From contig OZ017752.1 of NCBI GenBank assembly GCA_963969365.1, forward strand, positions 2,728,001 to 2,792,000: a DNA stretch of 64,000 nt. The letters run 5' to 3'. The notes below the pieces were generated by a model. The model ran no database searches, had not been told where the DNA came from, and saw only the letters and a list, made by a program, of their open reading frames with translations. Below are positions 6,001-64,000 of this stretch, in pieces (positions within the stretch are counted from its first letter, which is position 1; each line of letters begins with the position of its first letter). Made by a program: the position numbers and the translations under genes. Origin of the DNA: Asterochloris sp. CNOR1 (lineage: Eukaryota > Chlorophyta > Trebouxiophyceae > Trebouxiales > Trebouxiaceae).

Positions 6001-9000
6001 CGCTGCCCAAGGGTCTGGCAGTGCTTCAGTAAGCAGCCAGAAGAAGCCTTTTGTGCCCACAGTCTTGACTGAGTTTTTCAAAACAAATGGCTGGTGTGGA
6101 GCGCATGATCGATGGCTCACCATTGATGACAGCCACCACCGCAGACATCACAGCCGCTGGCACTCCCGGCGCATACGTGCCCCCGCCAGCACGCCGCCGC
6201 TTCTTCCTGCTGCCAGTCAGGCTGCGCAGGGCTGCCTGCAGGGCGATGCCGATGGTTCCCCTCATTGATACATGCAGATGCTCACAGTGAGGCCTAGGCC
6301 TGAACGCTGCTCTTGCTGTGTGCAGCTGAGCGTCACGCAGCAGAGCTTGGTGGGTGAGGTGGACTGATTGCCAACACTGACACCCAGTGCAAGCTGCCCC
6401 AGCATGACGCACAGGCAGCCTTTGGGCAAACGAACCCTGCAGCCCATCTGCGCATGAGGGCAATGCCATGCATGTCGTGGGTACTGACAGCTGCTGCGGC
6501 TAGCAGACAGGCTGAGGTGGAGGTTCGCCTCAGCCTGTGCACTGTGACAGGGCAAGGGCTCACCTAGACAGCTTCTGCAGGCGCAACAGAGGTGGTGGCT
6601 GACTCACAGACAGCGCAGCCAGCACACAGCCAAGGGGGCCAGCCACACATCCACAGCCAGCAGGTCAACGCTCACCTGAACGACCACCGCAGCCGCCGCA
6701 GGGGTAGTGGGGGTCAGGCCGCCTGGCGACGTGTCCAGAGGGTCGGTGCTGGAGGTCGACGCCATGGCATTCAGCGCGGCCTGAGCCATGGCAGCCGCCG
6801 CAAAGCTGTTGCCCTTTTGGGGCCCACCTGCCTTGTCCCCGCCTACACAGCCAGCAGCCAGTGAGGAGCCTGCAGGCCGCTGGGTGGCAGGATCAGTGCT
6901 GCAGGTGGACACCCTCGTGTTCAGGACAGCCAGAGCCATGGCAGCCGCCGCAAAGCAGCTGCCATTCCTGCACCCTGCCTGCCTTGTCCACCCCTTCACA
7001 ACCAGTCGCCAGTGACAAGGCTGCATGCTGAGTAAAATGAACATGATGACGAGCACCACAAAGTGCGACAGCGGCAGCACATGAGCCCCAGCAAGTCTCG
7101 GTCTTGAAGACAGAGCTGGACCTCCCAGGATGCGAGCCTTCCTGCCCATCCTGTCTTGCAGCACTGGGCGCAGCTGACAAGCTGTCAGACAAGTCGACTT
7201 GCAGAGCAAGCAATGGTTGCAAAGAGGGTGACTCAGCAGCAGACATGTCCCCCAAGTGGCCAAGCATGCCGGCTGCTAACCCAGCTCTGCCTTCTCCCAG
7301 CTCTTGCTCAGCATCTGGGCCACAGGTAGCTCGTCCAGGGCAGCTATGAGTCTGAGCAAGGAGGCTGCGGGCTTGACCGAGTGGTTCCCTCGCTTCCAGG
7401 CCTCCGTACATCCCAGGACGCCAGCAGCAGCCTCCTGCACCTGCGCACATGCAGGGTGGGTTTGGCACAGCCTCTGTACATCTCAGGACCCTGGCAGCAG
7501 CCTCCTGCAGCTGTGCACATGCAGGGTGGGGTTGGCAGTTTATGGCACTCACTGCAGGTGCATGCTGCACAGCGCAGCTGCTAACCCCAGGAATATGCCC
7601 TCCGAGGCAGGCAGAAGATTCCGTTGGGTGCCCATCGCTGGCGTCTGCCCGGCTGCATGGGCAGCCATGCGCTGCCTGCTGGCCTACATGTTCTGCAAGA
7701 CCTCAAGCGAGGGCTGGACCGCCTGCAGGGTGCCAGCGTCTGCGGCCTGTCAACCAACAGAGCCGCACAATGGACACCAGGTGGCCAGCCTGTCAAGTAA
7801 GCATGTACTGAGTGGAGCTGCTGTTGTAAGGCCGCACCCCACCTGCCGCTCATCTGTGTGGGTGTCAGACTGAGCCAGGATCTCGATAGGCATGCCTTGT
7901 GAGGACTGCACCGTCATAGCCCGCAGCGACAGCAGCAGCTTTGCCCTCTGCAGTCAAGAGAACACCTGGCTGAGGGTCTGCGCCCAGAGCGCAGCATAAT
8001 GCGCAGCGATGCCTGACGACACGCATGCTCTGGCAAAGTCATGAATGAGACCTGTGTGAGCTCAGGCCTCTATATAATCAAATTGAAATGCAGCTTTGGC
8101 ATGGCAGACATGCATGCTGCCAGCAAGTAATCCAGTGTCTAGTGTCAGCTTGTCACAAGCAGCACAAGGTCAGGCAGCAGCCACTGCTAAACCCATGCAA
8201 CCAAGCAGGCTCTGTTGCTGTCTTTCGCTGCTACATCAGCCTGTCTAAGCAGCCCCAGGCACCCTGCTTTGAGGCCCAGCCCCCTCACCTGGATCAGCAC
8301 GGTAAGCACAGCCTCTGCCGAGCGCTTTGGCGCGCCGGCAGCCTCCAGCCCCTCTGCAGCGGCTCGTTGGGGCCGCCCCTGCCTGCGGCGTGAGCGGCCC
8401 AGCTCGGCTGCCAGCTCAGCGTGCCCACTCAAACGCGCCAGCTGGGAGGCCTTCTGGCCCCTGTGATTGCGCACCCGGCGGAGGTCCACTCCTGCAGACA
8501 GGCAGGCATGGAAAGAATAGATAATTTGCGTTTATTGCGCCACCCAGCTGGAAGATCGCCTGGCCGCGATGGTTGCGCGACTGGCGCGGCTTCCAACGCT
8601 GCAGGAATGACCCTGTGTGAACTCAGTCACAGGTGCGCACCAGCGCAGGAAAGCAGATTGTCATTTATCTAGCCAGCTGGGGGCCCTCTGCCTCAGCACA
8701 GGCCCACTTCAACTGACATGCAGACAGGTAGCCATTGAGGCACCCGGCTGAAAGGCCGTGTGACTCTGATAGTTGCCCACCCGAGGTCCACCTCTGCGGG
8801 CAGATGGCAACTTAGAGAGCAAAACAACCACTCCTGCTGTCAAATGAGGCAGTCATGCATGCAGGGCAACCTCCAGCATGAGCTGCTGAGTGCCATGAAC
8901 CAGCACTGTGCAATCATGCAGGATGGCGGCCAGCATTGCGCCACAACTGTCCCCACATGGCAACTGGATTTGGCATCTGGGACAGCGGCAGGTGATCTTC

Positions 9001-14481: not shown

Positions 14482-17222
14482 TCACTCAAAGGCCCACTGG
14501 TTTTCCCTCCTGCAGCAGCACAGCACATAGCGTGTCAGGGCTTCTGCACCCTGGCAGAGGCTCAAGCTGCATTGATCCATGGCACCCTGGGGGAGAGGCA
14601 GTACCATGGCAACCAAAGTCGGCACTGAGCACATGAATTAATGTTTCCATCTGTGAGGACTGCCAGATGATGACAGCAGAGCGCTAAGCGCAGACTGTTG
14701 TAGGATCAGCGCTGAGGCAGCTGGTGCCTGTGTGCCGACAGCACTTATCTAGATGCCAGGTGCAGTGAACCAAGCCCTGACGGCATTGACATCCGGTGAG
14801 ATGAGAGCAGGTGGCATCAAGATGTGAACAAAATGCGAGGCTTCTGTGCCAATGCAAACAACCATTGTGTTTGAGAGCTGCCAAAAACGGTCTGCCATGC
14901 AGCAGTGTGAGGCCTCTGCCAGCTCAGACACATGTTGGCCTGTCGCAACCAGAAGTGTCGTGCAGACTAGAGGAGGCCTTGCCATTGTGGACAGATGAGT
15001 GATGGTGCTCACCTGACTTCCTCCTCCTCTTCTGGTGTGAAGTCGTTGACAATGTTGAAGGTTCGCCTGATCTCCTCAGGGGTCTTGCCTACAGCACAGG
15101 GGCCAAGCGCTCCGTCAGCAAAAGTGTGGATTGGGTCAGCAGGGGATGAGCTTGGTGTAAAACCAGCATCTGAGATGCCTTACAACCGCCATGACGCAGT
15201 GCAGAGTGGGACCCCATTGGGTGCTGGGTGCAGCAGGTGGTGCCAGCGACTGCTGTGCCCAAGCCACTGCTGTCCAGGACGGGGGAAGGGCGGCAGCTGC
15301 CAGGACTCAGGCAAGCAGGGACTGTGGGCAGCTCAACAACAAGCAATGCAGGGTGGTAGACGCACTGCTTCCCTGCTGCCCTGCTTCATGGTGATGGCTT
15401 TTTAGGAATAATCCAACATAGCAGAACAACCCTCAGCCCACCCTTGATCATGTTGGCCACAGTCAGGCACGTCAGGTCCAGCAGGGGCTTGATATTGAGG
15501 TAGTTGGCCGCCTGCAGGGCACTTGTCTGATGTGAGGAGGTACAGCATGAGTTCAAAGCAGAGCTTCCAGGACATCTCAGCAGTGCAGGCTGCCCAGATG
15601 GGCTAATGTGCCCATGCAGCTGGCCAGAGCTGGTCCTGTGCCTGCCAGCCTGGCTGGCACGGGTAGGCAGATGCCGGCATCGAGCCCAAATCGCTGAAGG
15701 TGGAGCACGTCATCACGGATCTGCAGACAAACAAGCATGCACCCACAATCAAGCAACCACGCAGCCATCTGCCCTAAGCTGCACTCACCAGGATGAGCTC
15801 AAACAGGTCAGACTGGTTCCACTGCACGCTTTCAGGGTCCCACTGCACATACAGCACACTAAGGATTGGCATTGTAAGCCTCAAAGCAGCATGCTTACCA
15901 GGATGAGCTCAAACAGGGTCGACTGGTCCACCTTGACGAACTCTGTGTCCCACGTCTTGATGTCCTCCTCTGTCTTGGCCGGCTTGTCATCAGGCCCCTG
16001 CTCTGCCTCCACGTGGAACTTGCAGTACTCTATCACCTTGGCCAGGACTGCAGGGCACGGGAGGGGAGTGCACAGGCTGGTCTTGGGCCGTGCCAAGAAC
16101 ATGGCTTCAGGTCAAACTGCTCAGGTCAAACTGGAGGTGGAGGACGCGATTGGGTTGCATGAACTGGTGAAGGCAGCCTGGTTGAGGGACCGCTTGCGTG
16201 CCAGGACTGCAGAGCAGGCAGGGAATCACATCAGCCTGGAGCAATGTGGCTGGCGACAAGAACTGGACTGCAGCCCAGACCACCTCTTGAGTCCACCGCA
16301 GTTGGGCCGTGAGCGTCAGGCATGCCTAGGTCTCAGTGGCGCAGCAAAATGCATTTGCGTGCCAGGACTGCAGAGGCAAAGTATGCAGAGGTGCGCTCAG
16401 TGAGGCGAAAATCTTTGGGCTATGCAGGGAGGAGAATCAGCTTGCAGCCCAAGCTGGAGGCAGGTGGACAGGAACCGCCAGCTGGGCTTTAGCACGTGAT
16501 ACACTGGGTAGTGGGGCACTGGGGGCCATGCTTGCAACCTGCAGGTAGCGGCCTGCAAGACATTACATAAGTCAAGCTCATGGCTGAGCAGATCAGGGCC
16601 CTACCAGACTGATGAAGGACATCCAAGGAGTGGTGTGGGGTTTTGATGCTGCAGCAGGTGTTGAGTTAGGGGCAGCTGACATGCTGACAGCTGTGAGACA
16701 GAAGAGCAAAGTGCGCAGTGCCTTGCTGCTGGTGGACTTGCCAGCTTGTGTAGTGTTGACAATGCCTGGGAGCTGGCTCCTGTTGGGCTGAGCATGCACT
16801 GCTGCAGGGACTCACAGGGATGTGCTGGACACTGAGGCAGGCTCAACACGGCGATGGGTCACCACTGCACAGCTCAAGGCAGCCATGCATGCCTGCAGCG
16901 GGAGCTCACTCTTGCTGGTTACGTTGGGCAGTGGAATCATGGCACCGGCATCAGTGTCCTCCAGGAGTTCCTTCACCGTGACAGACTGCGTGGCCACATC
17001 CTTTGGCACCTCAAAGGTGTCATTGTCTGAGGACCTGAGCTTCACCTGCAGGGGTACAGAGGAGGACATAGCCTTGGCCAAGAGCGCAGCATGCAGAAAG
17101 ATCTTCATGGCAATGACGGTGGCTAAGGCACACTGCAGGGCGGAGGAGATCAGTCTGGGAGGGCAAGCGTTGTGAGATTGGCCTGTGGTGCAGGGCAGGA
17201 AGCTGACCTTCTCGTCGACCAT
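14482..17222 (-). CDS. SKP1: SKP1, core adaptor of SCF ubiquitin ligases
   Basis: SKP1 bridges cullin-1 and F-box proteins in SCF E3 ligases. Six exons agree in phase: 17222-17208, 17045-16910, 16047-15899, 15511-15442, 15088-15013 and 14509-14482, giving 157 residues, the usual SKP1 length. The start [18 protein letters not shown] is typical. It is followed by the BTB-like core ([12 protein letters not shown], then [20 protein letters not shown]) and the F-box-binding C terminus ([15 protein letters not shown]), ending RRENQWAFE with TGA at 14484-14482. The first coding exon has 15 nt and the last 28 nt. If the last intron is retained, an in-frame TGA directly after Arg at 15013 removes the terminal residues. 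The gene is divergent from the AARSD1 gene, with 255 bp between start codons. Confidence 0.95.
15785..15850. repeat. Copy of the SKP1 exon 3 donor end inside intron 3
   Basis: The string aggatgagctcaaacagg at the real exon end (15900) recurs at 15790, 110 bp away. On minus it reads as an 18-codon phase-0 segment, starting after a TGTGCAG acceptor and ending in [10 protein letters not shown] before GTGAGT. Confidence 0.8.
16042..16380. repeat. Three copies of the SKP1 exon 3 acceptor region
   Basis: The string ccaggactgcag occurs at the real exon 3 acceptor (16042) and again at 16201 and 16362 in intron 2. The spacings are 159 and 161 bp. Confidence 0.75.
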
Positions 17223-17477: not shown

Positions 17478-20400
17478 ATGCCAGGGTCCACAGGCCTGCT
17501 GCCTTGCCAGCTAGATTCATACAGCAGCACACAGCAAACCAGCGTGATCAGGTGCGCCCAGGGGGTGGCAGAGCATAGTGCTGTCACTGTCATTTCTAGC
17601 AACAGCTGTTCAGCCTCTGTCTTGCTGCAAAAACAGGACGACAAGCGCCACACGGGCTGTGATGTGATATGTTGCCCCTTTCTCCAGTCAATACTACAGC
17701 AATCTCTCACGTCATTGCCTGATTGCTGCAGTTGCGAGGCACTGCCAAAGGGCAAGAAGGGCCTGCCTCAGAAGTGGGCAGTGGCGCTGCAGCACAGCCC
17801 CTTCTACCCTGAGGGCGGCGGTCAACCTTCAGATGGTGGCACGCTTCAGCCTCAAGGAGAAGCCCACCAGGTCCAGACCGCCTGCCATCTGCACCTGCTG
17901 CTTCTTTGGGTGGTCAGGCAGCCTGCCATAGAGCTGATGATGTTTGACTTGGCGGGTCATGAGCCCTGGCCAAGTGGTTCTATCTACGACTCACAGTGTA
18001 GCCTTATCTGCACTGCATCCAGGCCGCTAAGCAGTCTGCTTGCTCCCCTAAGCACTTTGCCTAGCTCATCTGCCAGCTGCTGACACCCTGCGTAGGTCAC
18101 TGCAACTCAGGCCTGGCATCACAGATGTCCTAGTGATCTTACATGGGAGCACCTCTTGTAGTCAGCAGCATTCATGCCTGCCTTCAGGTGCACGTGCTGG
18201 ATGTTCAGCGCCAGCCAGATGGGGCCCTGCTGCATACCACTGACGCTGCACTGGAGGCAGGGCAGCAGGTCGACGCCTCTGTCGATTGGGCCCGGCGCTT
18301 CGACTTCATGCAGCAGCATACAGGTGACTGCTGCTGGTCACCCAGTACCTCTTCAACCTGACAGCAGACCGCCTTATCTCACCCATAGGCATGGTGCAAC
18401 ATTGCCTCGCAGCTGACAGCGGGGACATGCACGACTGGGCCTCCTTGACTGGATGCTGTTGTTACCTCGAGGCATCCACAGAAGTCTACTTATCAGGTGA
18501 GTTTGCAGCTTGAAGTGGAGGCGCTGATGTTCCTGGAGGATACCTGAAGTTGTTTGAAGGCATGCTCGACATGCTTGACTTCCATTCTTTACAGGGCAGC
18601 ACCTTCTGAGTGCCATGTGTGAGCAGCTGCTGGACGCAGACACCCTCAGCTGGGAGCTGCACCCGCTGACAGGGGATGGCAGCGTGGAGACAGTGTGCAT
18701 CGACCTCTCCAAGGCTGTCAATTGGGAACAGCTCCAGCAGGTGGAGGCAGCCTGCAACGCCCACATCCGCGAGGCAAGGCAGGTGCAGCCTGTGGTGATG
18801 GACCAGTCAGAGGAGGGCTGCCGCCAGCAGGAGCAGCTTCTGGGCTCAGGGCGCCTCAGAGGAGGGCTGCCCGCTGCTGACAAGATCAAGGTCAGAGCTT
18901 GCACGGGCTCACGATGTGTTCTGGGCTGGTCACCTGCTGTAGCTGCAGGAATCCATGCCCGCCGTCCTGGCATTCCTCCCCCATAAGTCTGGAGAGCCTG
19001 AGAGCTGTGCAGGCTGTGTTGGGCCAAGGGGCCTGTGGCAGAGGCATGAGGTGTGCGGCCCGGGGCACCTCAAGAGGGGCCCTGGCTCCTGCCGAGAAGA
19101 TCATGGTGGGTGCGTCTTGGTGCAGGGCGCTGGTTTTGCCTGGTAGTCTGCCCATGCTGCATGGAGGGACACAAGCCAGCAAGGGATCTCTTGGGGTCAG
19201 GCACCTGAAGAAGCTGCTTCCGGCTGCAAAGTACAAAGCTGTTCAAGGCTCCCGAGCTGTTCAGTGCAGTCATGTGCAGATGTTCCTTACTAGCAGCAGA
19301 GGTACAGTGCCTGTGACCTCCTGGATGGCAGGCACACAGCTGGTTGAGACGCGCCAGGCCTGTGCCAGATGAACCTGCGCTTGTCTCAAATCACTGCTAT
19401 CGATCTGCATTGGCTTCCTGTGTGCTGCAGGGGGCCCTGTGCCTGCTTGGCATCGTCTGCATGGACAGCTGTTGTCTTTGCACTGGCTAGCGAGTGTCGA
19501 TCCTGTGCAAGACCATGACTGGCTGGGCAACCTGACAGGCCCCTTGCTGTGCCTGCAGGGGGCTCTGCGCTTGATTGACATTGACAGCGTGGACATCAAC
19601 CCCTGTGGGGGCACCCACGTGCGTTCGCTGGCCGAGCTGCAGCTGCTGAAGATCACAGCGCTGGAGCGCAGCAACAAGGGCCCTGCTCGGGTGCGCTTCC
19701 TTGTGGGCGGGCGGGCGATCCAGGCGCTGGGGGCTGGCCTGCAGCACGAGGCTGCTCTGACCAAGGTTGGTAGCCTGCTTGCCTGCTTGAGCTGTTAAAG
19801 CGAAGCTCCTCAGCTTGGAGAACGGGCCAGATAGGCTGCACAGAATGAGGAGGGCTGCCTGCAGGTGCTGGCTGCAGGCTGGCGGACCTCTTGAAGCACT
19901 GCTGGCTGCAGCCTGACACCTGCAGGCACCACAACACTCCCACTGTCACTCTATGAAGCCTGTAAATTTACTTTTTACATTTACTTTACTGGCTGCAGCT
20001 GCTCAGCTGTGGGCCCAGGGACCATGAGAAGGTGGCAGCAGCGCTGCAGGATGACAGGCGCCAGAGCGTCAGGATGGTCAAGGCCCTGGAAGAGGAGCTT
20101 GCTTCAGTGCAGGCTGCTGCCCTTGTCAGAGATGTGCCCCCAGGTCAGCAGGAGCTGCCTGCGCGGCTTGCAAGCGGTGCCGAACGCGGCTTGCTGCCTC
20201 AGCCGTGGCCAGCGAATGGGTGCAGCTTAGAGCTGCAAAAGGGCTGAGCCTCGAGTGGCACACCTGAACATACTGATCATTGAATGAGTACACAACTTCA
20301 TCGTGCAGGTGGAGCTGCAATCTTTCACAGGGAAGGCGCCACTGTCCAATACCTGTCGCTGGTGGCAAGCAAGGCCCTTGAAAGCCAGCCGCAGGCTCTG

Positions 20401-20971: not shown

Positions 20972-23900
20972 TTATTCTTTCTTGCGCATCAGGCTATCCA
21001 CTGCAAAACGGCCAGCTCCAAACGACTGCAGCAGTATGAGGCCGCCCGCAACCCCCATATTTGTCATGAAATGCGACCTCACATGTGCGTGATAGTGCCT
21101 GAATGGCAGGCAGCTCACAGCTTCAGCATATCCCCTGAAGCTGTTGAACTTGAATCACATTGAGCAATGATGCATGAACCCATTGTAACAGTGCCTTAGA
21201 TAGTACACCATGGATGCACTCATCAGAAATTCTGAAGGCTCACCATGTGGGGAAGACTTTCCAAAAGCGCCAGCATGTCAGGGCCTCCAGAGACAGGCAC
21301 AGTGCCAGCAGGCGGGAGACGGCAGCAGTCTTGAAGCCCACTGCAAAGGGGATGGCCAGCACAAACTCCGCCAGCAGCCAGTTGTTGTCGTGGCCATCTG
21401 TCAGGCCTCTGTATGCCGTGTGCTGCCTGAAGAGTGCCCAATCGCGTGCAATGACACGCTTAATCTGCAGCAGCATATGGGTGTGTGCAAATTGAAGGCA
21501 TGCGTTGACTGCTGTCAAGCTTCAACAGCACTGATGGGCAGCAAGGTCAACAGCAAGCACATGTCGGGGGCCGCACGCCCATGCAGGCTGCTGGCCCAAG
21601 ATGCCAGCCCCGCATGGCTACCACTAGGGAGCAGACCCACCTGTCCATAGCCGACGAAAACAAAAAGGCAGCACACCAGGAGGCGGCCAATGAGCAGCAC
21701 CAGTGACCGCCTGATGCCAATGTCCTGCCTGCTGCTCAGCTTGGAGTTCAGGAGCCCTGCGCGACAACAGCAATCTGTCACGCACCAAGCACGCCAGCAC
21801 GACGATGCAGGGCAAGAGGCTGGCATGGCAGATGCCTCCACATGCAGCTGACTTGGCAGGTGCCTCCACATGCGACTGAGGTTGAGCGGCAGCCTAGTCC
21901 TGGCTAAGCTGGAAGCAAGTAGACCACCTGCCTGTGCATGCCAGGCCTCATTGGGCCTCCATTGGCGCTCTACAGCCAGCTGCAATGCACTTAAGTGGTA
22001 CGTGCTCAATGTACATGTAGCCCTGTACCTGCATAAGTGTTGCCCAGCTGCCTGTCCTGCTTCACTGCGTGTGCCAGCACCAGGGCTGAGCAGCCCAGCA
22101 TGGCCACTCGCTTGACCATCAACTCGTTGGGGCGCTGGGAATACATGACCAGCATCATCCTGCAGAGCAGCAACAACAACAGCCTAGGTGCGGGCCAGTG
22201 GCTGGACCAGAAGATCATTGGGGCCGCAGTGGAACCAGCAGCCCAGGGTGGCGCTGGGACGGCATGACGAGCACGATCTTGCAGAGCAAGAATGCTGACA
22301 CTCTCAGAGTCAGGTGCCAGCCTGCAGCTGAGTCAGCAGCTCAGTGGGGCGCTGAGAGTGCACGACAGCACCCTCCGCTTGCAGAGGAGAACAAGATACA
22401 GAGTGACTGCTGGCTGTATGCCAGCTGAGCTGGCAGCTCATCAGAGTTGCTCAAGCAGCAGCGTCCTGCTGAGCAGCAATAGCAACAGCCTCAGCACCAG
22501 TTGCTGGCCTGCAGCTGCATCAGCAGCTCATTGGGGCATTTGGAGGGCATGAATCGCAATCCCCAGCAGGACAACAACAGCAAGAGCCTGAGAGGCAGCT
22601 GCAGGCCTCCAGCTGAACCTGCAGCTCGCGGAGGTGGTGACCAGCACCATCATGCAGAGCAGCCACAGCAGCAGCCTCAGGACTGGCTGCAGGCTCCACA
22701 AACAAGAGCGTAATGCTGGCAGCTGGTCACAGGGGTGGCAGCCCTTTGACATCCGCTGCAGCGCCAGAACGGTGGCAGACCACAGGGGCACCAGGCTGCG
22801 TGAACTACAATGCTGTGTCAGAGCTGCAGGGGAGGTGCTAAAAGGCTCCAGGCAGGCAGAGCAGCGCCACAAACAGCAGCGGACTCCCACAACACCACAA
22901 CCAGCTTCAAACACTCAGGCACATGCACATCATGCAGAGCAGGGCACAAGCAGATGCAGAGCAGACGCTCACAAGCCGTGCCACAGGAGGTCTGGTGCTG
23001 TCCCATGGCAGCAAACAGGCCTCCAAGCTCCCAGGCACATGCACATCGTGGAACGCAGGGCACAAGGTGATGCAGAGACACCAGGCGCTCACAAGCCATG
23101 CCACAGAAGCCTGGCGCTGTCCCACAGCATGTCCAGTACAAGGACAGACGCAGCTAGCGAGGTCTTGATGCCCAGCACCACCAGCGTGGCGCAGGGTACC
23201 AGGACCCAGATGTCAAACCAGGGGTAGCGGGGCAGTTTGTATGACCTGCAGGGGCAGGAATGCATAACAAACTGTACTGGCATGAAAACAGACTGGTGCG
23301 GACAACCATGTAGGTTGGCGGACTCTCTGCAGCTGTTGGGGCACCTGCCAGCAGTCAGACTGTGGGACATGCACGTGTGACATCTGAAACACCGCAGTGC
23401 GCACAGACAGTGAGCGACGCCACTGTCGTGAGCGCTGCCAGTGGCATGAGCAGTCAGGAGCAGGGGCCTGCCAAGCGACATGCAGCCAAAGAGAGGGGAG
23501 GCTCACGCTGGGAACTGCTTTGCTCGCAGTGCCATCTCAGGAGAGTTCATATGGAAGTAGGTCTCGATGTTTTCGTACGCCAGATTCATGAAGTAAGTGG
23601 CCACCAGGAACCTAGCCAACCCAGCCACTGCAGCACTGCCCTCCAACTGTTTAAAGTACCACCATATCTTACGGGTACCCTCCTGGGGAGTTCTGCTGGC
23701 AGCAATGTCGCGGGCTGCTGTCTGTGCCTGCTGCACTGACTGCTGTGTTTGCCTGGCCGCCTGCAGGTTGCAGTCTCAGATGTGCGTGTGTTGCTTCTGC
23801 TTGCAACACTGACAGTAAATGCAGACCAGGCACTGTCAAGCTCACCTGCTCACGCAGGCGCTGTGCCTTCTGCAAAGCCTGCTTTTTCAGGTGATCTATT

Positions 23901-23995: not shown

Positions 23996-24474
23996 GGCAG
24001 AAACAACAAGAGGAATAATTTTAGGTTATAAGGAAGGCGAAATGCCGAGCCCTCATCCTTCCAAGCTGCGGGCTTCTGCTCCAGCAAGGTTTCCACATGA
24101 TGAATGGTTGTGTGAGCCTCAATGTTAGGCGATGAACACACCTGGGGCTCCTACATTCACTTGTTACTCATATGCCCAGGACACCTGTCTGACCCCCTAA
24201 GCCAGCCCCCAAGCTCAGATCTGACGATCTGACAAGCAGGGGCAAGGGAAGGATCATGACACCAAAGCCCATTGCCTGGGGCAAGGTGTCTTACCAGCAG
24301 ATACTTCAGAGTCAGCTCACTTGCCCTGCAGCCTGCCCTGGCCCCACATGTGTCAGTCTGGCAGCACAGAAGCTGTCTGCACTATGCTGAAAGGTAGAAG
24401 CCGCCGGCGGCTGTTTGCCCTAATTGCCTCTCTGCGTTCAGCCAGGCATGGGCCCCACTGCATGCCTGGCTTGT
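23996..24474. other. Intergenic between SURF4-like gene and tRNA-Sec
   Basis: No gene recognised. It must hold the promoter of the SURF4-like gene (minus) and the upstream element of the first tRNA-Sec. Confidence 0.5.
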
Positions 24475-24561
24475 GCCCGCATGATCCTGGCTGGTGCTGG
24501 GGACAGCCTTCAAAGCTGTTGGAGGCGAGAGTCTCAGAGGTTCGATCCCTCCTTGCGGGCG
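24475..24561 (+). tRNA. trnU-TCA: tRNA-Sec (anticodon TCA), copy 1
   Basis: An 87-nt tRNA with selenocysteine features. The acceptor stem GCCCGCA pairs with TGCGGGC, followed by discriminator G. A six-pair D stem (CCTGGC/GCTGGG) is longer than normal. The anticodon stem ACAGC/GCTGT encloses loop CTTCAAA with TCA at 24510-24512. A long variable region follows, then a short T stem GAGG/CCTC with loop TTCGATC. The 5' GCCCG...ATGATCCT start and layout match eukaryotic tRNA-Sec, which reads recoded UGA. An ordinary TCA suppressor would lack the long D stem and variable arm. Confidence 0.93.
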
Positions 24562-24868
24562 TCTGCCGGTTGTGCTGGGCCCATCACCTTGTGTGTGTCG
24601 TTGTAAGCCTCAAAAATCCTGTCTTGGTTCATCAAAGCTCTTTTCAAGGCTGCAACCCCCACCTCACCCTGCTGTAAGATTTGATGTTGTATTGCTCTTT
24701 GTCTGAGCAGCACCAGCCTAGCACTTCACACATATGCAGGCATCTGCCAGCGTTGCATGCACAGGTGATGCCTGGGGCAAGATGCCTGGTCGGCAGATAC
24801 ATCAGCCGTGGCTTGCCTGTGTGCACTGTATTCAGCTGGGCATTGCTTCCACAGCATGCCTGGCTACA
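24562..24868. other. Spacer between the two tRNA-Sec genes
   Basis: No coding sequence seen. The last part (catgcctggct before copy 2) repeats the flank before copy 1, showing that the duplication extends beyond the tRNA. The overall period is 394 bp. Confidence 0.6.
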
Positions 24869-24955
24869 GCCCGCATGATCCTGGCTGGTGCTGGGGACAG
24901 CCTTCAAAGCTGTTGGAGGCGAGAGTCTCAGAGGTTCGATCCCTCCTTGTGGGCG
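24869..24955 (+). tRNA. trnU-TCA: tRNA-Sec (anticodon TCA), copy 2
   Basis: Identical to the copy at 24475 except for one C-to-T change in the 3' acceptor strand (24950), which turns a G-C pair into a permitted G-U pair. The anticodon TCA is at 24904-24906. Structure is intact, so this is probably a functional second gene. It ends 108 bp from the IMP dehydrogenase stop codon, which is on the opposite strand. Confidence 0.92.
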
Positions 24956-25006
24956 TCTGCCAATCGGTGGTCATGTCCAGCTGCTTGATGCAGCATGCCG
25001 TTGGCT

Positions 25007-25011: not shown

Positions 25012-25063
25012 GAATGAGTTCCCAAACTGGCAGATCCTTCATTGTCACTGGTACAAGCTGCAG

Positions 25064-45904: not shown

Positions 45905-46930
45905 GTTCCCCCCGATCACTTTGGGCAGGGCTGGTTCTGACAGGCTGATACCTAGATCAGTAGGGAGGGCTGCCGCTGGTCTGGACCGCGGCGAGTGCTT
46001 CTCCTTGCAGGCTCTCTGGGCAAAGTGCAAGGATGGATACGTATGTCTCTGTGGCTGGCTGTGTGACAATGCCAGAGACAGCATGCACTCACGGGACAAT
46101 GAACATTACTTGGAGCTGAGCACAGGCTGGACGAGCTAGGTCAGATAGATCTTGACGCCGCCAACTTCTGCAGCGATCTGCGGACTCAGAGGGACGGGAG
46201 CCCGGCAGGGGACGCAGGTAACCCTACATGGCACCTGCAGCCGACATGCTGGTGTGTTGAGGTTGCCGTGCCCAAGTGGCCAGCATGGCTCCAGGTTGTG
46301 GATCACCAGCTTTAAAAGAGATCAAGGAGGGCACAGGCAGCAGGAGCCACTGCTGCCAGTCTGTCAGGAATGTGCACGGCTCTCCACTGTCATGCGAACG
46401 TCTTTGCTGGGCTCCCAATAGAGTGACTGCAGAGCAGCAGCTCACATTGCATTGCAGCAGCCCATACTACTGCTGTGCATTTTCTTCAGCCTGCACATCC
46501 ATCTCATTGACATGCCTGTTTGGGATGGTCTGTAAGAGCACAGGCACCCAGCACCTTTTGTCCAGCTTGCCTGCCATTACACTGTGTTCTGCTAACTTGG
46601 CCTGCGGACAGGCCGGCAGGTGCCAGGAGTGCCTGCAGCAATAGCCAGCCCGTGCCCTGCCTTGTGTCACAGTGGGACTGCTTGCTGCAGGTGGCCCCTA
46701 CAGGTGCAGACAGCAGGCAGGCGCCATGAACCCTTCTGGCCGTCAGCAGGTCAGCCTTCGCTGACCCTGCACCTCCATTGGCCTGCAGGCACCATGAGCG
46801 CCCCTCAGACAGAGGGAGGAGTAACAGGCAGCTCAGGCACCACTGCTGGCTGCAGGCGCCCAGTGTTGATCAATGGCAGCCTCACTGATCAATCAGCTGT
46901 ATCGATTTGCTGCCATTGCCTGCAGGCACC
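45905..46930. promoter_or_regulatory. Divergent upstream region, ZIP transporter / RPSA, with start-codon copies
   Basis: About 1 kb with no supported gene. A string cctgcaggcaccatgagcgcc at 46782 copies the real RPSA leader and start at 46919-46937, 137 bp downstream. A weaker third copy lies near 46712-46730. Each copy holds an acceptor-like CTGCAG and an ATG. Transcripts may use alternative first exons here. Confidence 0.5.
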
Positions 46931-49414
<2,484 letters not shown>

Positions 49415-49578: not shown

Positions 49579-49698
49579 CAAAGCCACAGCATTCCAAACA
49601 TGTTACCATATCAACATGAAATGGGCAGGAGGGGTGGATTCAGGCACTTGCAGATGAAACAATGATACACTTGGGATTGCCTAATAGCACCACTTGTG

Positions 49699-51709: not shown

Positions 51710-52995
51710 ATGAGGGCTGGCGTCACCTGGTTGGACGCACAGCAGCATGCTAGCACAAGCTGCTCAGCCTGGCCTCAGGTGGCGACCCAGCACACCTGTG
51801 GTCTGAGGCCTCGCAACTCTAGGAGGGTCATACGCCCCCGGGGATTGCCCCACGACACCAGCACGCAGCATGGCAGGCGCTTGCGAAGTCCCCCAACGAT
51901 CAGGGCGGTGGCTGCTGAGGTCGAGACGGCAGAGGCTGAGCTGCTCACCACTGAGGGCCTGGGGGACCAGTCAGACGCTGGCCAGCTAGCGCTGCTCAAT
52001 CTTGCAGCCACATGCTCGCGATTGGAGCAGCAATTGGATGCATTGCCAGTCCTGGGCCTTGAGCAGCCCTCAGGCAGCATCACGGTGAGCCAGGAGGCAC
52101 ACCGTGTCAGCTACATGCAAGCGCAGACCAGGCACGCATTCCCACTGGGTCTGTGGTCAAAATCTTGGCTTTCAGTGTGGTCCACCCTGCCATGCTGCCT
52201 GTTTGGCTTGCTGCGACACAGGGACTTGCTGGTGCAGCCTGAGTGCCAGGGCATGCATTGCGCAACAGCTGTGCACAATGCCAGCCACATGTGGTCTTCT
52301 GTCGAAACCTGTGGCTGCTGCCAGCAAGGCACGACCTGGCGCCCTGCTGCAGGCAGAGGGCACTGCAGCCAATGCTATGTCTGGGCTGCTGCGCACTTGC
52401 CCAGCACGAAGCTAGCCTCAGCCAGTTCCTGCTTGCAGTTTGAAGGCCACAGGAGCAGGTAGAGGGGTCTCGCAGGCAGCACTGGCGTGCCGTTCAGGAT
52501 GATAGTAGATGCAAGCAGGCCAAGCTTACAAGCTGATAGTGTACGCAATCTGAGGACCCAAGGACACAGGATGTTCTGCTGCGCATCTCTGAATTACCCC
52601 AAGCTCATATACCATGTGTCTGCAGCCTGAGGACCAGAAGCGGCTGGAGGAGTCCCGCGAGCAGCACTGGCGCGCCGTCCAGGATGGCCGCCAGCAGCGC
52701 AAGCAGGCCAAGGCTGCCACCAGGCAGCGCAAGCAGGCCAAGCCCTGCAAGGTCAGCCAGGAGGACTGGGACAGCCATATCATGCTGGGCAATTCAATCC
52801 AGAGCGGGATGGTGCAGAGCCCTGAGCTCATCACCAAGTGGCAGGCAGATGAGGCAGAGTTCAGTGCAGCCCCGCCACTCAGATCACGAGCGGCCAACGG
52901 GGCAGCCACCCTCACACAGGCCAAGCCCGTGTCAACTGTGGTGGATCCATGGACTGAGTCTGCGCCAGAGGAGGGGACAGAGGAGGCAGAGGGTG

Positions 52996-53026
<31 letters not shown>

Positions 53027-56000
53027 GGCGGGCCCCGCAGCTTTGGCGCCCGTTGCTGCAATGCAACGCCTTCGTCCAGGGCTGCTGCAGCCAGTGGCGG
53101 ACCCGGAGTCTGTCGTCATCAAATCCCAGCGAGCACACACACGGCGCAGCCCAACAGGCACGCGCCGCATGCGGGCGGGGCCAGCACGGGCTGGAGCACC
53201 AGCAGAGGTGAGACATCTCAGTACATTGTTCACTCGTGGGAAGCCATGTCCAACGGTGGGGCAGGAAGAGACCTGCGAAACAACAAGACGCTTGAATGAC
53301 GAGGCTCATCTGATACAGCAGCTGTGCGTCTGATACCTGAGCCTCCTGTCCAAGGTGGTGCTCACGGGCTTGCAGGGACTTAGCAGCACACCATTTTGAT
53401 GTTAATAGGCACAGCCTGTTCTGCTGGGTCAGCTTTCCCTTGCACAAGAGCTGCCTGCCAACCCTTCTCACGCAGGATGCAAAGCTAGTTGCGTCCATCC
53501 TCACCTTGACAGACCTTGCCCTGATGCAGTGTGCAGCGTCCATGCCAAGAACAGCATCAGCCCCTGCTCACATGCACTTTGAAGGCAGCTCCCTAATCTC
53601 CCCCTGCATGGGCAGCAAGCCCCTGCCCACAACAGCCACTAGCCACGTTTCTGCTCGACCCCCTGGCATGTGCAGGTGCAGGCGCCAGCAGCAGCAGCCC
53701 CTGCCCACGCAGCCCGTGGCGGGCGGGTTACCTCCCGGCATAGGACGGACACCAGTGTGGAGGAGACGCCAGCTGCCATGCTGCAGCAGAGCCTGGATGC
53801 AGAGGCAGAGGGCGATGACTTGGATGCCGTTGCCAGCAAGGGGCTGACGGGCAACATCTCCAGGGTGAGTGTTTGCTAGATTTGCTGTCCAGGGTCTTCT
53901 CAGCAAGATTCAGCAGCAGTACCTCGAAGCCAGATGCTAGCAAGGGCCTAACAGGCCAGCCCTTGGGTGCCTGCCCTGAAGATGCGCCATGGTGGCAGGG
54001 TGTCACAGCCATGCAGTCGCCCCTGCAGGACATGCATTCTGAAATGGCCACATTTTCTAAGGCAGTGATCCTGGCCTCATGCTGGTGCTGCGCCAGCTGG
54101 TGGCAAATGGGAGCAGTTTGAGCTGAGGGGCATGCACTGCAGGTGCGCAGCATAGCCAATGCTGCTGAGCGCAGATAGTGTATTCTACTACCTTCAGGAA
54201 CCTGATCAGGGTGCTTCGGGCCCTATCCGGCGTGCCTCCAGAAGGTGCTAGGAGGGACTGAAGAACAAGCAGGCCTAGCTGCTGGGATCGTCTGGTGTTG
54301 GACTCTCACCTCGGGATGGACAAGTGCCCAGGCTGCCATATGACCCACCTGGAGGACAAGCAGTGCATGCAGCTTGAGCATGCAATCTGCAGGCATATGA
54401 TCTATGCAAGGGGGTTTGCACCACCCTGCTCTGCTAACGTCTCAGCATGCTGCCTGCTGCTGCCTGCAGACTCAGTGGAGAGCAGCTGAGTGGCCCTGGC
54501 CACTTGCAGCCACCAGTCAACAAACACTGAGCTGCTTGTGCCCTGCCTGCAGAGCATGCAGGTCTCCCTGCTGGGCCAAGAACAACATGACCCTGGCCCA
54601 GGAACATTCACAAGCTGTGACAAGCAATGAGCCGTCCCTGTGCCCTGCCTGCAGAGCAAGCAGGCCTCCCTGCTGAGCGCGAAGGACGAGGTGGCCCTGG
54701 CCAAGCAGATCTCTAAGATCAAGCCTTACCTGCTGAAGCGAGACGAGATGACTGAGGAGCAGGGGCAGCAGCCCACCCTCAGCGAGTGGGCCACGGCCTG
54801 CGGCTTTGAGGATGAGGAGGTGAGAATGTATTCAGATTCATCAATCATGCCACAGCCGTTGTGGGCAGCTGTGGCAGCCAGTTGGGTGCCTGCAGTCTTG
54901 ACAGGAATCATGCAATTGTCAGCAAGTGCGGGAAGCCTGCTCTTGCTTGCAATCTGCAGAGCACAGGTTTTGAATGCATGTGCCTCGCCAAGGGCCTGCC
55001 CCGGTGTACTAGCCTGCGAATTGCGCCGCCTTGGCCATAGCCCTGTTTTGGGCTGCCACTGTTGGCAGGCAGCCAAATCAGTGGAAGCCCACCCTGAGCA
55101 TTCGGGCAGCCTACTGTTGTCTTGAGAATGAAGAGGTGCACTTTGGGTGTAAGCTCATGAGGTCAAGCCATGGCTGAGACCTGCACACTCGTGGGGGCAT
55201 TGGTGCTGCCATGCTGTGCTACTGTGAGAGCTGCACCTTCATGTTTTCAGCCCAGCTGTTGGGCTGCGACTGTTGGCAATCACTCACGTCAGATGCACCA
55301 ATTGCAAGGTGCTGACCGGCTGCCATGGTCCCTGTTGTTCCTGGTCTGAAAATCAAGCCTGCCAGTCCAAGCTGCTATGCCAGCTGCAATGAGAGGGGTC
55401 CCCTCAGGGGCATGGCAGTCTCATTGTTTGTGTGGCAGTGTCTTGCATGCACCACAGGCTGATGCAAAGGCAGCTTGTACGCAGCTGCCTGTGGCACTGA
55501 CAAGTGTTGAGCCCTCAAGGCGCAAATGGCCGGCGACAAGGCTCGCCACACCCCTGTTTCAAGACATGCCCGCTGCTTTTCTGAAGCCACTCTCACTGTC
55601 CGTGCAGGCATTCCAGTCGCGAGTGGCCATTGGCGAGGAGGCCCGCCAGACCATGATCTGGGCCAACCAGAGGCTGGTCATCTCAATGGCGCGCAAGTTC
55701 ACTGGGCGGGGCATGGACATGCCTGACCTGATCGCAGAGGGCATGACGGGCTTGGCCAAGGGTGTCGACCGCTTTGACCACACCAAGGGCTTCAAGTTCT
55801 CCACCTACGCACACTGGTGGATTCGGCAGGCCATCTCGCGCTCGCTATCAGAGCAGGGGCGCATGATCAGGTGGGACTTCATGGGAGCGAGGGGGGGTGC
55901 CTCTGACCCCTACTACTGTGGTGCAAGCCTCTGCTGCAGTGAGGGTGCATGGGAACAGGCATCTGGTGGGCGCTGGAGCAGTGCATGAGCAGTTTTTTTT

Positions 56001-58622: not shown

Positions 58623-58625
58623 GTG

Positions 58626-61600
58626 TCACCAGGCACCACTCCTGTTGCTGCTGCTGGTGCGCATGGGCAAGGTGCTGCTGGTCACAGGCGGCCTCTGGTG
58701 TGCAGACTGCGGGGACAGCGGCGTGAGGTCAGCAAACCTGTTGTCGTACAGCCCCGCAGCTCGGGGTGACCTGGTCTGCTGCCGCTGCTCTTGCGCAGCG
58801 TCTGTACCAAATGGGGAGGCTGCAGGCTGACTGGACAGTTGGAAAGGATCAAAGCCATGGCTGCCGCCACCAAAGCTGAGCCCCTGGGCGGCCCCACCCA
58901 CTGGAGTTCCGTCTGGCGAGGGGTTTGAGGAGGTCAGCATGGGAGTCACAGCGAAGCTGGCTGGAGTGGGGCTGTGCTGGGGCGATGTGTGCCCTGCAGC
59001 ACAAGGGGGAGGTCTGTTGGAATCCATCAGGCTGTGATGGTGCCCAACCCTGAGCACAAGGCTGAAGCTGGGCTGATTTGACGTGGCAACAATGCTTGGT
59101 GAACCACAATTTACAGATGCCGTGGCACAGAAGCAGGTTGGCAGCAAGATGTGTGCAGACAACAAGAATCCCAGTTCAGATGTGTTTTGCAAGTTACCTA
59201 GGGTGGGGACCTGAACAGTGGGAGGCAGAAGGGAGCCACTCCCAGTCTTGAAGGGGTTGCCTGCGCGAGCGCCCACATTGCCGTTTGCATGCCCTTCAGC
59301 GGGCGGAGCACCTCCAACAAAGCCTACAGGAGTGCATGGAGGTCAGGGTGAACGACTCTGTAGTCAGCAGCTCAGCAGCTGCCAGACCTAGACAGCAGGT
59401 GCCCCTGCTGGTGTGTAGCGGCATGTCTGCACTGCCGCGCACACGGTGCAGCCTTAGCTATGCCGCCTGGACGCCGTTCTAGCCCGACAGTTTGACCACC
59501 CTGCACAGACCTGCACAGCACTCACCTGCATGTTGGGGCTGCACACACAGCAGTTGACCCCTGCCCACAGCACCAGCCGCTCCGTGAGAGCTTCTCACTC
59601 CTGCTTGGCTAAGCGGTGGAGACCTCATTGGCATGGACCCCTCCTCACAGGGTCCAGTCCGTCCCGTGGAGAGCCCCCACCGCCCCTGCCATGGTCGTAT
59701 GGGCAGTGCTCAACAGCAAAGCACACGCCTACCTGGTAGGGGCCCACTTCCTCTGCGCAAGGACTCAAGCTGCTTCAAGTTGCAGTGACAGCGGCCATTG
59801 TCTCGTAAATCTGACAATCCAAAGCGACAGTGCACTGCCCTGCACTTGTGCACAGCCACAGAGCCCTCACCTGCGTGGTAACGCCCCTCCTCATGAACCG
59901 AGTCCAGGCTGCCCCGCGCGGAGCCCAGGCCAAGTCCACTCCCCTGCCGGGCGTGGTGGGGGCTGCCAGCCACAAACCCTCCTGGCCTCACGGGGGGGCT
60001 GCCCACCGTCTGGTAGTGCTGCTGCTCAGGTGTGGCTGCCGCCCCATTACTGGCCCCCACTCGGGACGTCACATCAGCCTCCCTGGCCTGCAGTACAGCA
60101 GCATTGGTGGGTGGTGCCCAGTGTCACAGCGAGCCAGTCCTACCCTGAGCATGTGTTCATGTGAACTCTCCTAGAGATGCAAACATGTGAAGGTAGAGGG
60201 TGCCTGCTGCTCAGCCGCCAGCATGCCACTCATGCAGCGACTCTGCGGTCTGCTGGCCCATGTTTGCAAGCGCACCAGTGCTTGTGGACTAGGAGACAGC
60301 AGAGGGAAGGGATCTCCAGCAGCATGACCTTTCTGCATGCCTCCTTCCTGTTGACCTCTAATCGAGCGGCAGATCCAAGCATGAGGTGCAGACATGAGCG
60401 CTGTTGCTTCCACCTTACACACAGAGCATCCGCTGGAGAGACCATGCCAGCAGTGCACTCCTGGAGGACTGTCAGGCAGGGTCACAGCAGGAGCCGATCG
60501 TCACTTGTCACTGGCACCCCAGAGCCAACAAAGCTGGCACACCTGCTGCACTCGCACCTCACCCACCATGCCTGCTGAGCTCAGCACACCAAGAAGCAGG
60601 GCCCAGATCTGGTGCCTGGGGTGGTCCTACCGCAGCTGTAGTCCGCTACCTGAGATGTGACCCATCTCAGACACCAGTCACTGCCTCGAGTGTGGCCCCC
60701 CTCATCTGCTGGTATGTGACCCACCTGAGCCATCCCGAGCAGAGCAGCTTGGATTGGACTGCCCTGCCTGCTGCAAGGGGGAGGGCATCAGCATTGGCCC
60801 TGAAGCACAACATTCAGTCCTGCCTGCTGCAACGGGAGGGCATGGGCTCAGCACTGGCCCCAAAAGCACAGGTTCCACACTGCCCACCTGGAAGGGGTCG
60901 TCGGTGGTCGGGGAGCGCGCACTGCCAGGCTCTGACCCCAGCCCAAGGAGGTCATTTACCTGCATGCCGCTCATCTGGCGCCCCAGCGCAGATGCGTCCG
61001 AGCCCCGTGGCTCCAGGCGCGACTCCTGAGGGCAGGCAGACACCCTGTGACACATGTGCAGGCACCCAGGGGGACTAGGAGGTGTGGCTGCCAGAGCTGT
61101 TGTGTGGCTGCCAAGTGGAGGCGCGGCATCAGCGCAGCCTCCTGAGCCTGGCAGGTCCAGCCTGAGCAGGCGGGCTCACAAATGCCCTTCTCATGCTGTG
61201 TTGGCACCATTGGGCCACAGGTGGACAGGCAGCATCAGCGCGACTTTATGAGCCTGGCAGATCCAGCCTGGGCAGGAACGCTCGCAGGTGCCCTGCTTAT
61301 GCTGTGTTGCATCATCAGGCCAGGCTGAGACCTGGCCAAAGCCATGTGTGCAGGCATCAAGAGGCCTGCCATTGGCAGGCACCTCTGCGAGATGGCGTGC
61401 AGCACTGTAGCTGCCTCAGGCTGTGCCTGACATTCGCATTGTCCTCTGTTACATGGGGCAAGCCAAGCATACCAGCTACCGCAACACCCTGATACCACAT
61501 GACTGCTAGTTTCAAAAGCACCCTGCCGGCACATCCTAATTGGACCCTGGAGGACCTGCGAGACCTTGCATCAGCCCAGCATGCCCAGTGGCAACAGCGT

Positions 61601-64000
61601 GGCGCAGTGCCTGTCTCCCTCTGGGACTCCGTCAAAGTGCTGGTGCAGGCTGATGGCCGCTGCAAGCTGGCCCACACAACGCCACTGTCATGGGAGAGCC
61701 CTCTGCTTATGCCCGGCGCTACCTTGCCCGGCGCCAGCGCTGAGAGCGTGGCAGCGTCGCCTGTCTCCGTCAGGGAGTCTGCCTGCAGGAGCACCCTGAC
61801 CAGAGGGAAGAGCTTGGAAGCGGGGGCTCGCTGCAGATCCTCAAAGGCCATCACCCAGGTGCCCTCCCCACCAGCGCTCATGCCCGACCACTTGCGGCTC
61901 AGCGTGCGCAGCTTCAGCCCTGCAGGGGCCCAGGATCTTGACAGTCTGTTGCGAGACTGCAGGTTGTGTGACCAGCTGTGGCTTTCGGTAGATGTCCTTC
62001 AGGGAGCCACAAGACTGTAACAAAGCATCTTCAGCTGCCACCGACATGCACACCCTGCGCTGTAGTGAGAGGCCGGCTGCAGCCCAGCATGGGCAGCTTC
62101 AGCCCTGCAGGGCTTGCATTCTCTTGACTGTGGCTCCTAGTGTGAAAGTTGAAGCCTGCTGGGGAACCAGAATTCAAAGAGTTTTGAATGCTGCTGGCAG
62201 TCAGGCCCAACCAAATCCAGCTCAGTAAGGGCAAATGCAACCCTCTAGATGGCCAAAGCCTGGTGGTGGTGACCCACAGCTAAAGGCTGGTCCATTGACT
62301 GTTCAGCGTGCGCAGCTTGGGTGTGCAGGCCTGCAGGCTTGCCGTGACATGGGGTGCTGCGTTCCCAGCTTGAACCCTGTAGGGTGGCAAGATGCACAGC
62401 CCCACCTCTAGGATGGGCAATGCAGTGGAAGGCAGTCAGCAACCCAGGAGGCAGGGAGACAGTGGCACAAGGCCCACCTGAGCCTGCAGTCTCCAACTTT
62501 CTAGAGCCAGACTTCTCGGCCGCCCGCTCTTGCCTCTGCACAGAGCAGCCAAGCTTTGTCAGCCTGGGGGGCTGACATTGCCAATGTTGCTGCTTGATAG
62601 ACTGCCTGAGCAGAGGACAAGGCACAGCAGGTGCCCTGCTGCTAGCAAGACATGCCCGCTTGGGGCAGCCCCACCAGAGCATGCTTGAATAGCAGAAGCT
62701 GACCGCATACTTCCTTGTGCCCTTGACAGCTACGACATGTTGCAACGTTGAGGAGAAGTAGTGGGGCGGGAACGGGGAGTTCTGGTTAGCTGTGGATGAT
62801 GACCACACATTTAGATGACAGAGAGCTGCCTTAGAGACGAACCCACTTGCAGAACACTTGAACAGGGCTCACCGCATATTTGAACATGCGTTTGAGCCCC
62901 CACAGCTTGAGCTCTGGGAAATCCTCCCATGTCTCCCCAACCACCTGCAAAGCCGACCAAGCTGTTGCAAGCGCACCAAAATTACAGCCATGCGCCGCAG
63001 CAATGGCCTGCTCATATGGAAAACGGCTCATCAAAGCCTCTGCCGCAGCAGCATTTGTCTGCGCAGTACGAGGTATGTGAGCAGAAGGCACGCCAGGGTG
63101 TCCCTCACAGTCAGGGACATGTTCTGTTGCCTCTCTGCCGCAGATCTGAGTACTCAAGAGAAAGCGCTGCTGCAAGGGGCCAGGCAAAACATCAGGGCAG
63201 GGCTGCAGAGAACACTGCAGCCATGACTCACCATTCTTGTGATGCGCGCCCTCAGCTCCGCCAGCAGGACAGAGTAGACAGTCCGGTCCGTTGCGGACGC
63301 CTCAGGATCACGCAGGCCCGATTGAGACATGGCCTCCATCTGGTCATACAGCTGCAACCATTATAGTGAAGACTCTCATGATATTGGGCATTACCATCAT
63401 GCCAAACAACTTTGGCGCAGCCCACTCATGGAAGCTCATGCAGCCACAAGCATCTCAAGCAGCAGCTTTGGACCTCGGCTTGTGGCACACAACGCATTCC
63501 AGCTGCGGCAATGAGCAACTGGGGCCTCTGCAGCCGCCCACACCTTGATGTTGTTTGGCCAGGTGGCAGAAAGTTGGATTGATACAAGATGTGTCGCCTC
63601 CATCTTGAAGCTGATGCGCAGCAGCAGAGCTGCTGTGACCATCTTTGCCACGCTCAAGCATCCCCTCAGCAAGGCAGATGCTCTGTCAAGTCAGAGCTGC
63701 AAGTGTGTCACGCCTCGGCAGGCTACAGCAAGGCACTGTTTTGCGATTGTATCTGTATAGTCCTCACTTGCAGTGTCTAGGGTGTGCCAGGCAGTGCAGA
63801 TGACCCAAAGTGCTCACCTGAAACAGTGCCTCCACATCAGCATTGCGCGTGTGCTGCGGTGAGCTGAAGTAAACACGCGAAATCTCATCTCTCAGGACGC
63901 GCATGGGGACCTTGACCTCATCACGATCCCCCTTCTCGACCAGGTTTCTGATCTGGGCTGCAGGCAGCACAGACAGGCAGAGTCAGGGGCATACGCAATG
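58626..64000 (-). CDS. Unidentified multi-exon gene with NPF/DPF motifs, 5' end cut off
   Basis: I do not recognise the family. The gene enters from the right edge. The N-terminal part seen is helical: 63957-63818 (IRNLVEKGDRDEVKVPMRVL), an exon ending 63544 (LLLRISFKMEATHLVSIQLS), 63351-63232 (LYDQMEAMSQSGLRDPEAS) and an exon ending 62873 (GETWEDFPELKLWGLKRM). Next, near 61930-61730, comes LKLRTLSRKWSGMSAGGEGT with FEDLQRAPASKLFPLVRVLL. The rest is disordered, with PSPDG, NPFKTG and DPFQ motifs in exons near 60950-60890, 60060-59870, 59330-59210 and 59040-58626. NPF and DPF are bait motifs for EH domains and AP2 ears, which would suggest an endocytic role (inference only). Exon borders between 62.8 and 58.6 kb are incomplete, and two genes are possible. 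Confidence 0.5.
60765..60890. repeat. Two tandem units of about 60 bp
   Basis: The segment from cctgctgcaagggggagggc to the next cctgctgcaacgggagggca is repeated once, with shared cagcaytggcccy-aagcaca. It lies within an intron or between exons of the right-edge gene. Confidence 0.7.
61120..61315. repeat. Two tandem units, 106 bp period
   Basis: gcatcagcg starts at 61126 and 61232. Both are followed by gagcctggcag-tccagcctg and by tatgctgtgtt or catgctgtgtt, so the whole 106-bp unit is copied. Confidence 0.85.
61905..62110. repeat. Copy of the exon acceptor of the LKLRTLSRKW exon
   Basis: gcagcttcagccctgcaggg occurs at about 61909 (real junction, minus-strand acceptor) and at about 62091, with a weaker copy near 62310. 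The spacing is about 180 bp. Confidence 0.75.

Follow-up and report, generated by a model that had tools for sequence, protein, structure and literature searches.

Short tandem duplications and copies of exon edges in introns of the green alga Asterochloris sp. CNOR1

Results and discussion

Copies of splice junctions in the window

The introns of the trebouxiophyte green alga Asterochloris sp. CNOR1 contain degenerate copies of neighbouring exon edges, which we studied in a 64,000-nucleotide stretch of contig C7 (C7:2728001-2792000, hereafter the window) of its 56.4 Mb, 21-contig genome. Among the genes of the window, Pfam matches support an AARSD1-like gene (tRNA synthetase class II A and SAD domains), an ANKRD13-like gene, a ribosomal protein SA gene, and a sigma-70 gene that adjoins ordinary nuclear genes. 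The name SKP1 is backed by PDB, where the best matches are plant SKP1-like proteins. The SURF4-like gene carries the name given in a first-pass annotation of the window; the piece of it that was submitted gave no Pfam family match.

This annotation had listed 13 coordinates at which a copy of a splice junction with adjoining exon sequence was thought to lie nearby. We compared a 60-base window on each junction with the DNA within 600 bases and, as a control, with 289–299 foreign flanks, the number varying by site. Copies are present at 12 of the 13 coordinates, with scores of 18.4–34.8 that none of the foreign flanks reached, but the copy proposed at 8491 (best score 13.4) was equalled by 13 of 291 foreign flanks and is not upheld. 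Gene-model junctions lie no more than 6 bases from all but one of the 13 coordinates; 32630 instead falls inside a predicted exon. Copies of exon edges in the window include:

4343..4391, minus strand, copy of the donor edge 4566-4614, spacing 223
6889..7028, minus strand, copy of the acceptor edge and exon 6739-6877, spacing 150
7470..7537, minus strand, copy of the acceptor edge 7400-7467, spacing 70, head to tail, 88% identical
15771..15843, minus strand, intronic copy of the SKP1 exon end and donor, the real one being 15878-15953, spacing 107
16200..16230, minus strand, copy of the SKP1 acceptor edge at 16047, spacing 157
19414..19467, plus strand, copy of the acceptor edge 19543-19595 in the gene with alanyl-tRNA synthetase-type domains, spacing 129
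22250..22681, minus strand, array of copies of the exon edge 22130-22189, at 22250-22288, 22347-22401, 22456-22491, and 22638-22681, scores 21.4-30.0
22534-22589, minus strand, borderline fifth copy in the same array, score 15.8
22885..23010, minus strand, copy of the donor edge 23001-23129, spacing 116
32451..32496, plus strand, copy of the 32630 region, spacing 155, both members within the predicted exon
33909..33951, plus strand, copy of the acceptor edge at 34312, spacing 390
35182..35289, plus strand, copy of the acceptor edge 35281-35388 in the ANKRD13-like gene, spacing 99, head to tail
36964..37025, plus strand, copy of the acceptor edge 37068-37127, spacing 104
46775..46838, plus strand, copy of the acceptor edge 46913-46973 in the ribosomal protein SA gene, spacing 138
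52434..52524, plus strand, copy of the acceptor edge 52621-52712, spacing 187
54520..54601, plus strand, copy of the acceptor edge 54620-54705 in the sigma-70 gene, spacing 100
62078..62131, minus strand, copy of the acceptor edge 61893-61945, spacing 185

The intron next to the acceptor at 22159 thus carries its exon edge in four clear copies plus a borderline one, about 80–110 bases apart. The SKP1 copy (15789-15842) was called by our gene finder as an in-frame exon of 18 residues. In the best PDB match shown, however, the alignment splits in two at this exon and both parts cover the same TLFELIL, indicating that the 18-residue piece is a spare copy rather than part of the family. Genome annotators should therefore be aware that a copied exon edge can pass for an exon.

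Local copies across three genomic regions

The search was extended to the 200 kb immediately upstream of the window, 50 kb of contig C1, and 40 kb of contig C12, so that three regions amounting to less than 1% of the genome were covered; the window and its upstream DNA are together referred to as the 264 kb. A self-trained gene finder predicted 477 introns with the donor consensus cAG|GTGaGc and the acceptor consensus CTGCAG|G. An earlier run, which over-split the genes (2,326 introns), was discarded and the penalties were raised, and every test below uses the second run, whose gene models were made without RNA support and tend to merge neighbouring genes. Filtering (length 120–2000, both flanking exons at least 45 bases) kept 321 of the 477 introns. 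It excludes, for example, the leader intron of the ribosomal protein SA gene at 46925, and a small number of false exons, the SKP1 copy among them, stay in the set. The shuffle tests used 267 introns (length 220–2000).

Ungapped local segments (distance 10–599, score at least 18) numbered 41 in the window and 0, 0, and 0 in three sequences simulated with a fourth-order Markov model, and none of 500 random far diagonals in the 264 kb contained a segment with a score of at least 17. The density of these segments differs between regions, with 148 in the 264 kb of C7 (28 per 50 kb), 19 in the 40 kb of C12 (24 per 50 kb), and 10 in the 50 kb of C1. Duplications are thus clear on C7 and C12, and the C1 sample has about one-third of the C7 density. 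Median intron lengths of 293 (C7), 224 (C1), and 388 bases (C12) are in line with the idea that introns grow by duplication, as far as three regions can tell. Non-overlapping local pairs number 131 in the 264 kb, 39 of them in the window. They comprise 38 intron–intron pairs, 68 pairs of an exon edge or exon with an intron, 17 mixed pairs, and 8 exon–exon pairs. Spacings below 60 are under-counted in this set because the query tile was barred from overlapping its partner.

Tandem arrangement, spacing, and age

Aligned length closely follows spacing in the freshest pairs (78 bases at a spacing of 77, 99% identical; 59 at 52, 97%; 68 at 70, 88%), which identifies them as head-to-tail tandem duplications. 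Among the strong pairs (score at least 30, spacing at most 240), 12 of 23 have an aligned length within 30% of the spacing; the alignments of the remaining 11 mostly fall short of it, and these probably arose in tandem as well. The two freshest pairs, a very small sample for judging whether unit ends have the little or no microhomology expected of break repair, overrun their spacing by 1 and 7 bases. The window also contains pairs of the same kind without any junction:

61110..61322, no strand assigned, intron-internal pair, 61110-61217 and 61214-61322, spacing 104
37759..37987, no strand assigned, intron-internal pair, spacing 87

At 61110..61322 the process evidently acted with no exon edge involved. 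In the window, Tandem Repeats Finder (score 40) reported 20 rows, only some of which correspond to the pairs described here.

Most copies lie 50 to 220 bases apart: 92 of the 131 pairs have a spacing of 60–219 bp and 29 of at least 220 bp, with a median of 99 where both members are purely intronic and 164 where exon sequence takes part. Spacings of 80–119 bp are over-represented (39 vs. 23 expected under a flat distribution over 60–219, P 0.0015), and this mode recurs in the 200 kb outside the window (26 vs. 16.25 expected, P 0.016). The narrower 97–110 interval singled out by the first-pass annotation is less pronounced there and not significantly enriched (10 vs. 5.7, P 0.064). At the 12 confirmed sites the best spacings run from 99 to 492, a wider range than the 81–180 given in that annotation, with 22159 and 34309 being the long ones. 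The proposal that the process is persistent appears doubtful, since only two of the listed pairs (ungapped, score at least 26, spacing 40–260) are more than 95% identical; the process may be an old one, or duplications may collapse again while still young.

Position relative to splice junctions

Shuffling of positions within the same introns, the control proposed with the first-pass annotation and taken here as the basis for judging whether the copies are centred on junctions, separated acceptors from donors. Of 267 acceptors, 30 have a copy at score 18, compared to a null mean of 12.6 (95% range 7–19) and with none of 5,000 draws as high, whereas the 16 of 267 donors are unremarkable (P 0.16). 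Scores of 16, 20, and 25 give the same picture, with acceptors above every draw and donors inconspicuous. On this test, the earlier claim of junction centring holds in part, for acceptors and not for donors. On C1 and C12 combined, acceptors are again enriched (7/73 vs. 2.57, P 0.004) and donors are not (4, P 0.25), although at score 20 the acceptor excess is not significant (3 vs. 1.5, P 0.17). C1 by itself gives no acceptor excess (1 vs. 0.78).

The contrast depends on how intron interiors are sampled. Two random windows per intron gave 21 matches in 532 (3.9%), which favours the first-pass annotation more than regular windows do (106/1,663, 6.4%), and with such regular, length-weighted windows the difference shrinks (acceptors 9.7%, donors 5.3%, interior 6.4%, exon interior 4.3%). 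Compared directly, 31 of 321 acceptors and 17 of 320 donors have a match (P 0.050).

Matches at acceptors fade with distance into the exon, from 33/319 at 0–20 bases and 27/319 at 20–40 bases to 10/417 at 60–90 bases. The intron flank of acceptors, 20–60 bases off the junction, is not enriched (23/638, i.e. 10/319 and 13/319, vs. 173/2,710 deep in introns). As only the conserved exon side is raised, this speaks against a mutational hotspot at acceptors, which would raise both sides. Nor does it follow from centring on the exon border that growth is not random, as had been argued, because duplications that reach into an exon should persist mostly when a junction is part of the duplicated unit. 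Selective purging of donor-spanning duplications was not significant when the donor flank (13/638) was compared to the acceptor flank (23/638) over different distance ranges (P 0.13).

Intron length and fate of the copied sites

The copies lie predominantly on the intron side of the junction. At score 18, acceptor copies are found 27 times upstream and 4 times downstream, and donor copies 14 times downstream and 3 times upstream. Introns with an intron-side copy (41 matches) have a median length of 558, compared to 340 for all good introns, and subtracting the spacing from the copy-bearing introns yields 338. If a copy merely had to fit into its intron, the expected median would be 401 (340–486), which differs from the observed value (P 0.0006), and a model in which the copy adds its own length predicts 517 (448–602). 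Copy-bearing introns are thus longer by about one copy, corroborating the earlier suggestion that introns are lengthened by short tandem duplication, with spare splice sites left behind.

Copied acceptors retain AG in 27 of 36 cases and copied donors retain GT in 11 of 19. We found no clear departure from neutrality that would indicate selection keeping or purging these sites (simulated AG retention 0.57–0.83, GT 0.49–0.74), and spacings divisible by three are not in excess among the kept intron-side acceptor copies (4/23). Judged from their sequence, the spare splice sites show no sign of use.

These observations were compared to simulations in which random duplications occurred inside introns or across one junction and then decayed. 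Duplication sizes were drawn from 50 intron–intron pairs. Rates were assumed, with an order-5 background, third codon positions changing 0.7 times as fast as neutral sites, and 0.08 or 0.25 indels per substitution, so that the simulation serves as a guide rather than as a fit. For ages of 0.25–0.55 substitutions per site, simulated donor matches (17.7 vs. 17 observed) and interior matches (22.7 vs. 21 observed, random-window data) agree with the counts. With regular windows, the simulation yielded 4.3% for acceptors, 5.0% for donors, 4.1% for interior windows, and 3.6% for exons. Random placement combined with a conserved anchor thus accounts for the donor counts and for much else in the pattern, but acceptors stay about two-fold above what it yields.

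Origin of the copies

We consider it probable that most of the pattern results from randomly placed short tandem duplications that are filtered by splicing and whose traces fade more slowly where a conserved exon edge forms one of the copies. Stretches of mostly 50–220 bases, with a mode near 100, were duplicated head to tail at many gene sites, as the local pairs, their spacing mode, and the agreement of unit length and spacing in the freshest pairs show. A duplication inside an intron would be harmless, and one spanning a junction would be tolerated if the outer junction copy stays in use, so that the other copy turns into intron and adds one unit. The intron-side placement and the gain of one spacing in intron length are observed; that the outer copy is the one used is our interpretation. 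Duplications within exons would alter the protein and presumably be lost in most cases. While the intronic copy decays, the exon edge would be held by selection, and junction copies may thus be recognised longer than intron–intron copies. Repeated rounds could build arrays such as that beside the 22159 acceptor, with spare splice sites as by-products. Fill-in and joining of staggered breaks would fit the size of the duplications.

Several results weigh against this explanation or limit it. The best simulation gave 19.3 acceptor matches, compared to 31 observed, and no age range reproduced either this count or the strongest acceptor matches, while the exon-interior count was overpredicted (24.7 simulated vs. 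11 observed) and younger simulated ages placed interior matches above junction matches. Sorted by score, there are 6 intron–intron vs. 5 exon-edge pairs at scores of at least 36, 2 vs. 8 at 30–36, 5 vs. 20 at 24–30, and 25 vs. 35 at 18–24; these counts favour the explanation overall, but the share of junction pairs shows no steady rise with falling similarity, given the weakest class. In about half of the interior matches (3.1 of 6.1%) the partner is an exon or a junction, leaving 3.0% with intron-only partners, and because this inflates the interior baseline, the true junction excess, donors included, may be larger than stated. Finally, the C1 sample shows almost no duplication.

The acceptor excess also invites the proposal that acceptors themselves are special, either as a duplication hotspot or because their copies are useful and kept, which we regard as somewhat unlikely. 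The enrichment in both sets of shuffles, the direct comparison to donors, the shortfall in the simulations, and the AG retained in three-quarters of the copies would all suit it, but AG retention lies within the simulated neutral range, spacings show no preference for multiples of three, the excess on C1 and C12 is not significant at score 20, and the intron flanks of acceptors are not enriched. The acceptor hexamer CTGCAG was considered as a hotspot and rejected as the main cause: 41 of 259 interior CTGCAG windows have a match, but about half of all interior matches pair with an exon or a junction, and once partners are restricted to introns, CTGCAG comes only 30th among 196 words (0.071 vs. 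0.030 overall). It may at most contribute. As acceptor intron flanks are low, we lean toward exon heads remaining visible longer than assumed, together with partial purging of donor-spanning duplications, rather than toward special acceptors. The more far-reaching view that intron length is set largely by duplications of about 100 bases biased to include 3' splice sites, with spare acceptors and their coding sequence as a standing source of exon edges, seems unlikely.

The remaining explanations carry far less weight. Intron gain through tandem duplication of an exonic AGGT segment, the link proposed in the first-pass annotation, is known from other eukaryotes (PMC3443670, as outlined there), but not one of the 56 junction copies sits at a distance equal to the intron length, and donor and acceptor edges resemble each other in 0 of 390 introns at score 18 and 2 of 390 at score 16 (foreign 0/1,945). 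Both tests are blind to old intron gains, and a major role for this route is very improbable. AGGT duplication is not what is mainly seen here; existing introns grow. Dispersed intronic elements carrying their own splice sites have even less in their favour. Such introners also present repeated acceptor-like sequence within introns and look similar at first sight, but they are dispersed, whereas the copies described here stay within their own gene: a genome-wide search with two of the arrays (very common words being skipped) returned only the arrays themselves, and far diagonals were empty. Chance similarity of low-complexity, CTGCAG- or TGC-rich sequence is hardly credible either. CTGCAG and TGCTGC words abound in this genome and a borderline score of 16 is reached in about 1% of foreign comparisons, but at score 18 matches at a junction's own locus (5.3–9.7%) far exceed foreign ones (0.10–0.16%), and the Markov sequences yielded none.

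Comparison to known systems and implications

Minisatellites and other intronic tandem repeats also consist of head-to-tail units, and a few multi-copy arrays occur here, but most of the duplications described above are decayed pairs, many including an exon edge. The AGGT model, in its published outline, shares with them a tandem duplication that touches splice-site sequence and differs in that it creates introns instead of enlarging them (PMC3443670). Small head-to-tail duplications have been described as fresh events at induced breaks with overhangs of 43–50 bp in mouse and human cells (PMC8355091). As far as that account goes, the resemblance is loose, since those events are fresh and the copies studied here are decayed with a spacing mode near 100. 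Among titles and abstract openings of open-access literature on intron gain, duplicated splice sites, intron growth, and green algae, we found no report of such a pattern. It is real and modestly surprising, with a core that is ordinary apart from the acceptor excess.

Intron growth without transposons is hard to see, as introns decay fast. Here, the conserved edge of an exon serves as an anchor by which an old duplication can still be recognised, and one genome suffices to count such events and measure their size. The contrast of acceptors with donors furthermore amounts to a testable statement on which spare splice sites the spliceosome ignores.

Other repeats

A longer duplicated stretch (24432-24567 and 24826-24961) contains two selenocysteine tRNA genes (24475-24560 and 24869-24954, 76.3 and 73.6 bits) 394 bases apart; here, a tandem duplication copied a whole tRNA gene. 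A perfect 18-base repeat in 2.2 copies (TAAGAGGGGTGATAATCA) is located at 44278-44316 and is unlike its G+C-rich surroundings. Upstream of the window, several overlapping exon–exon pairs with spacings of 49, 81, 207, and 367 at C7:2718750-2719250 suggest a coding tandem repeat.

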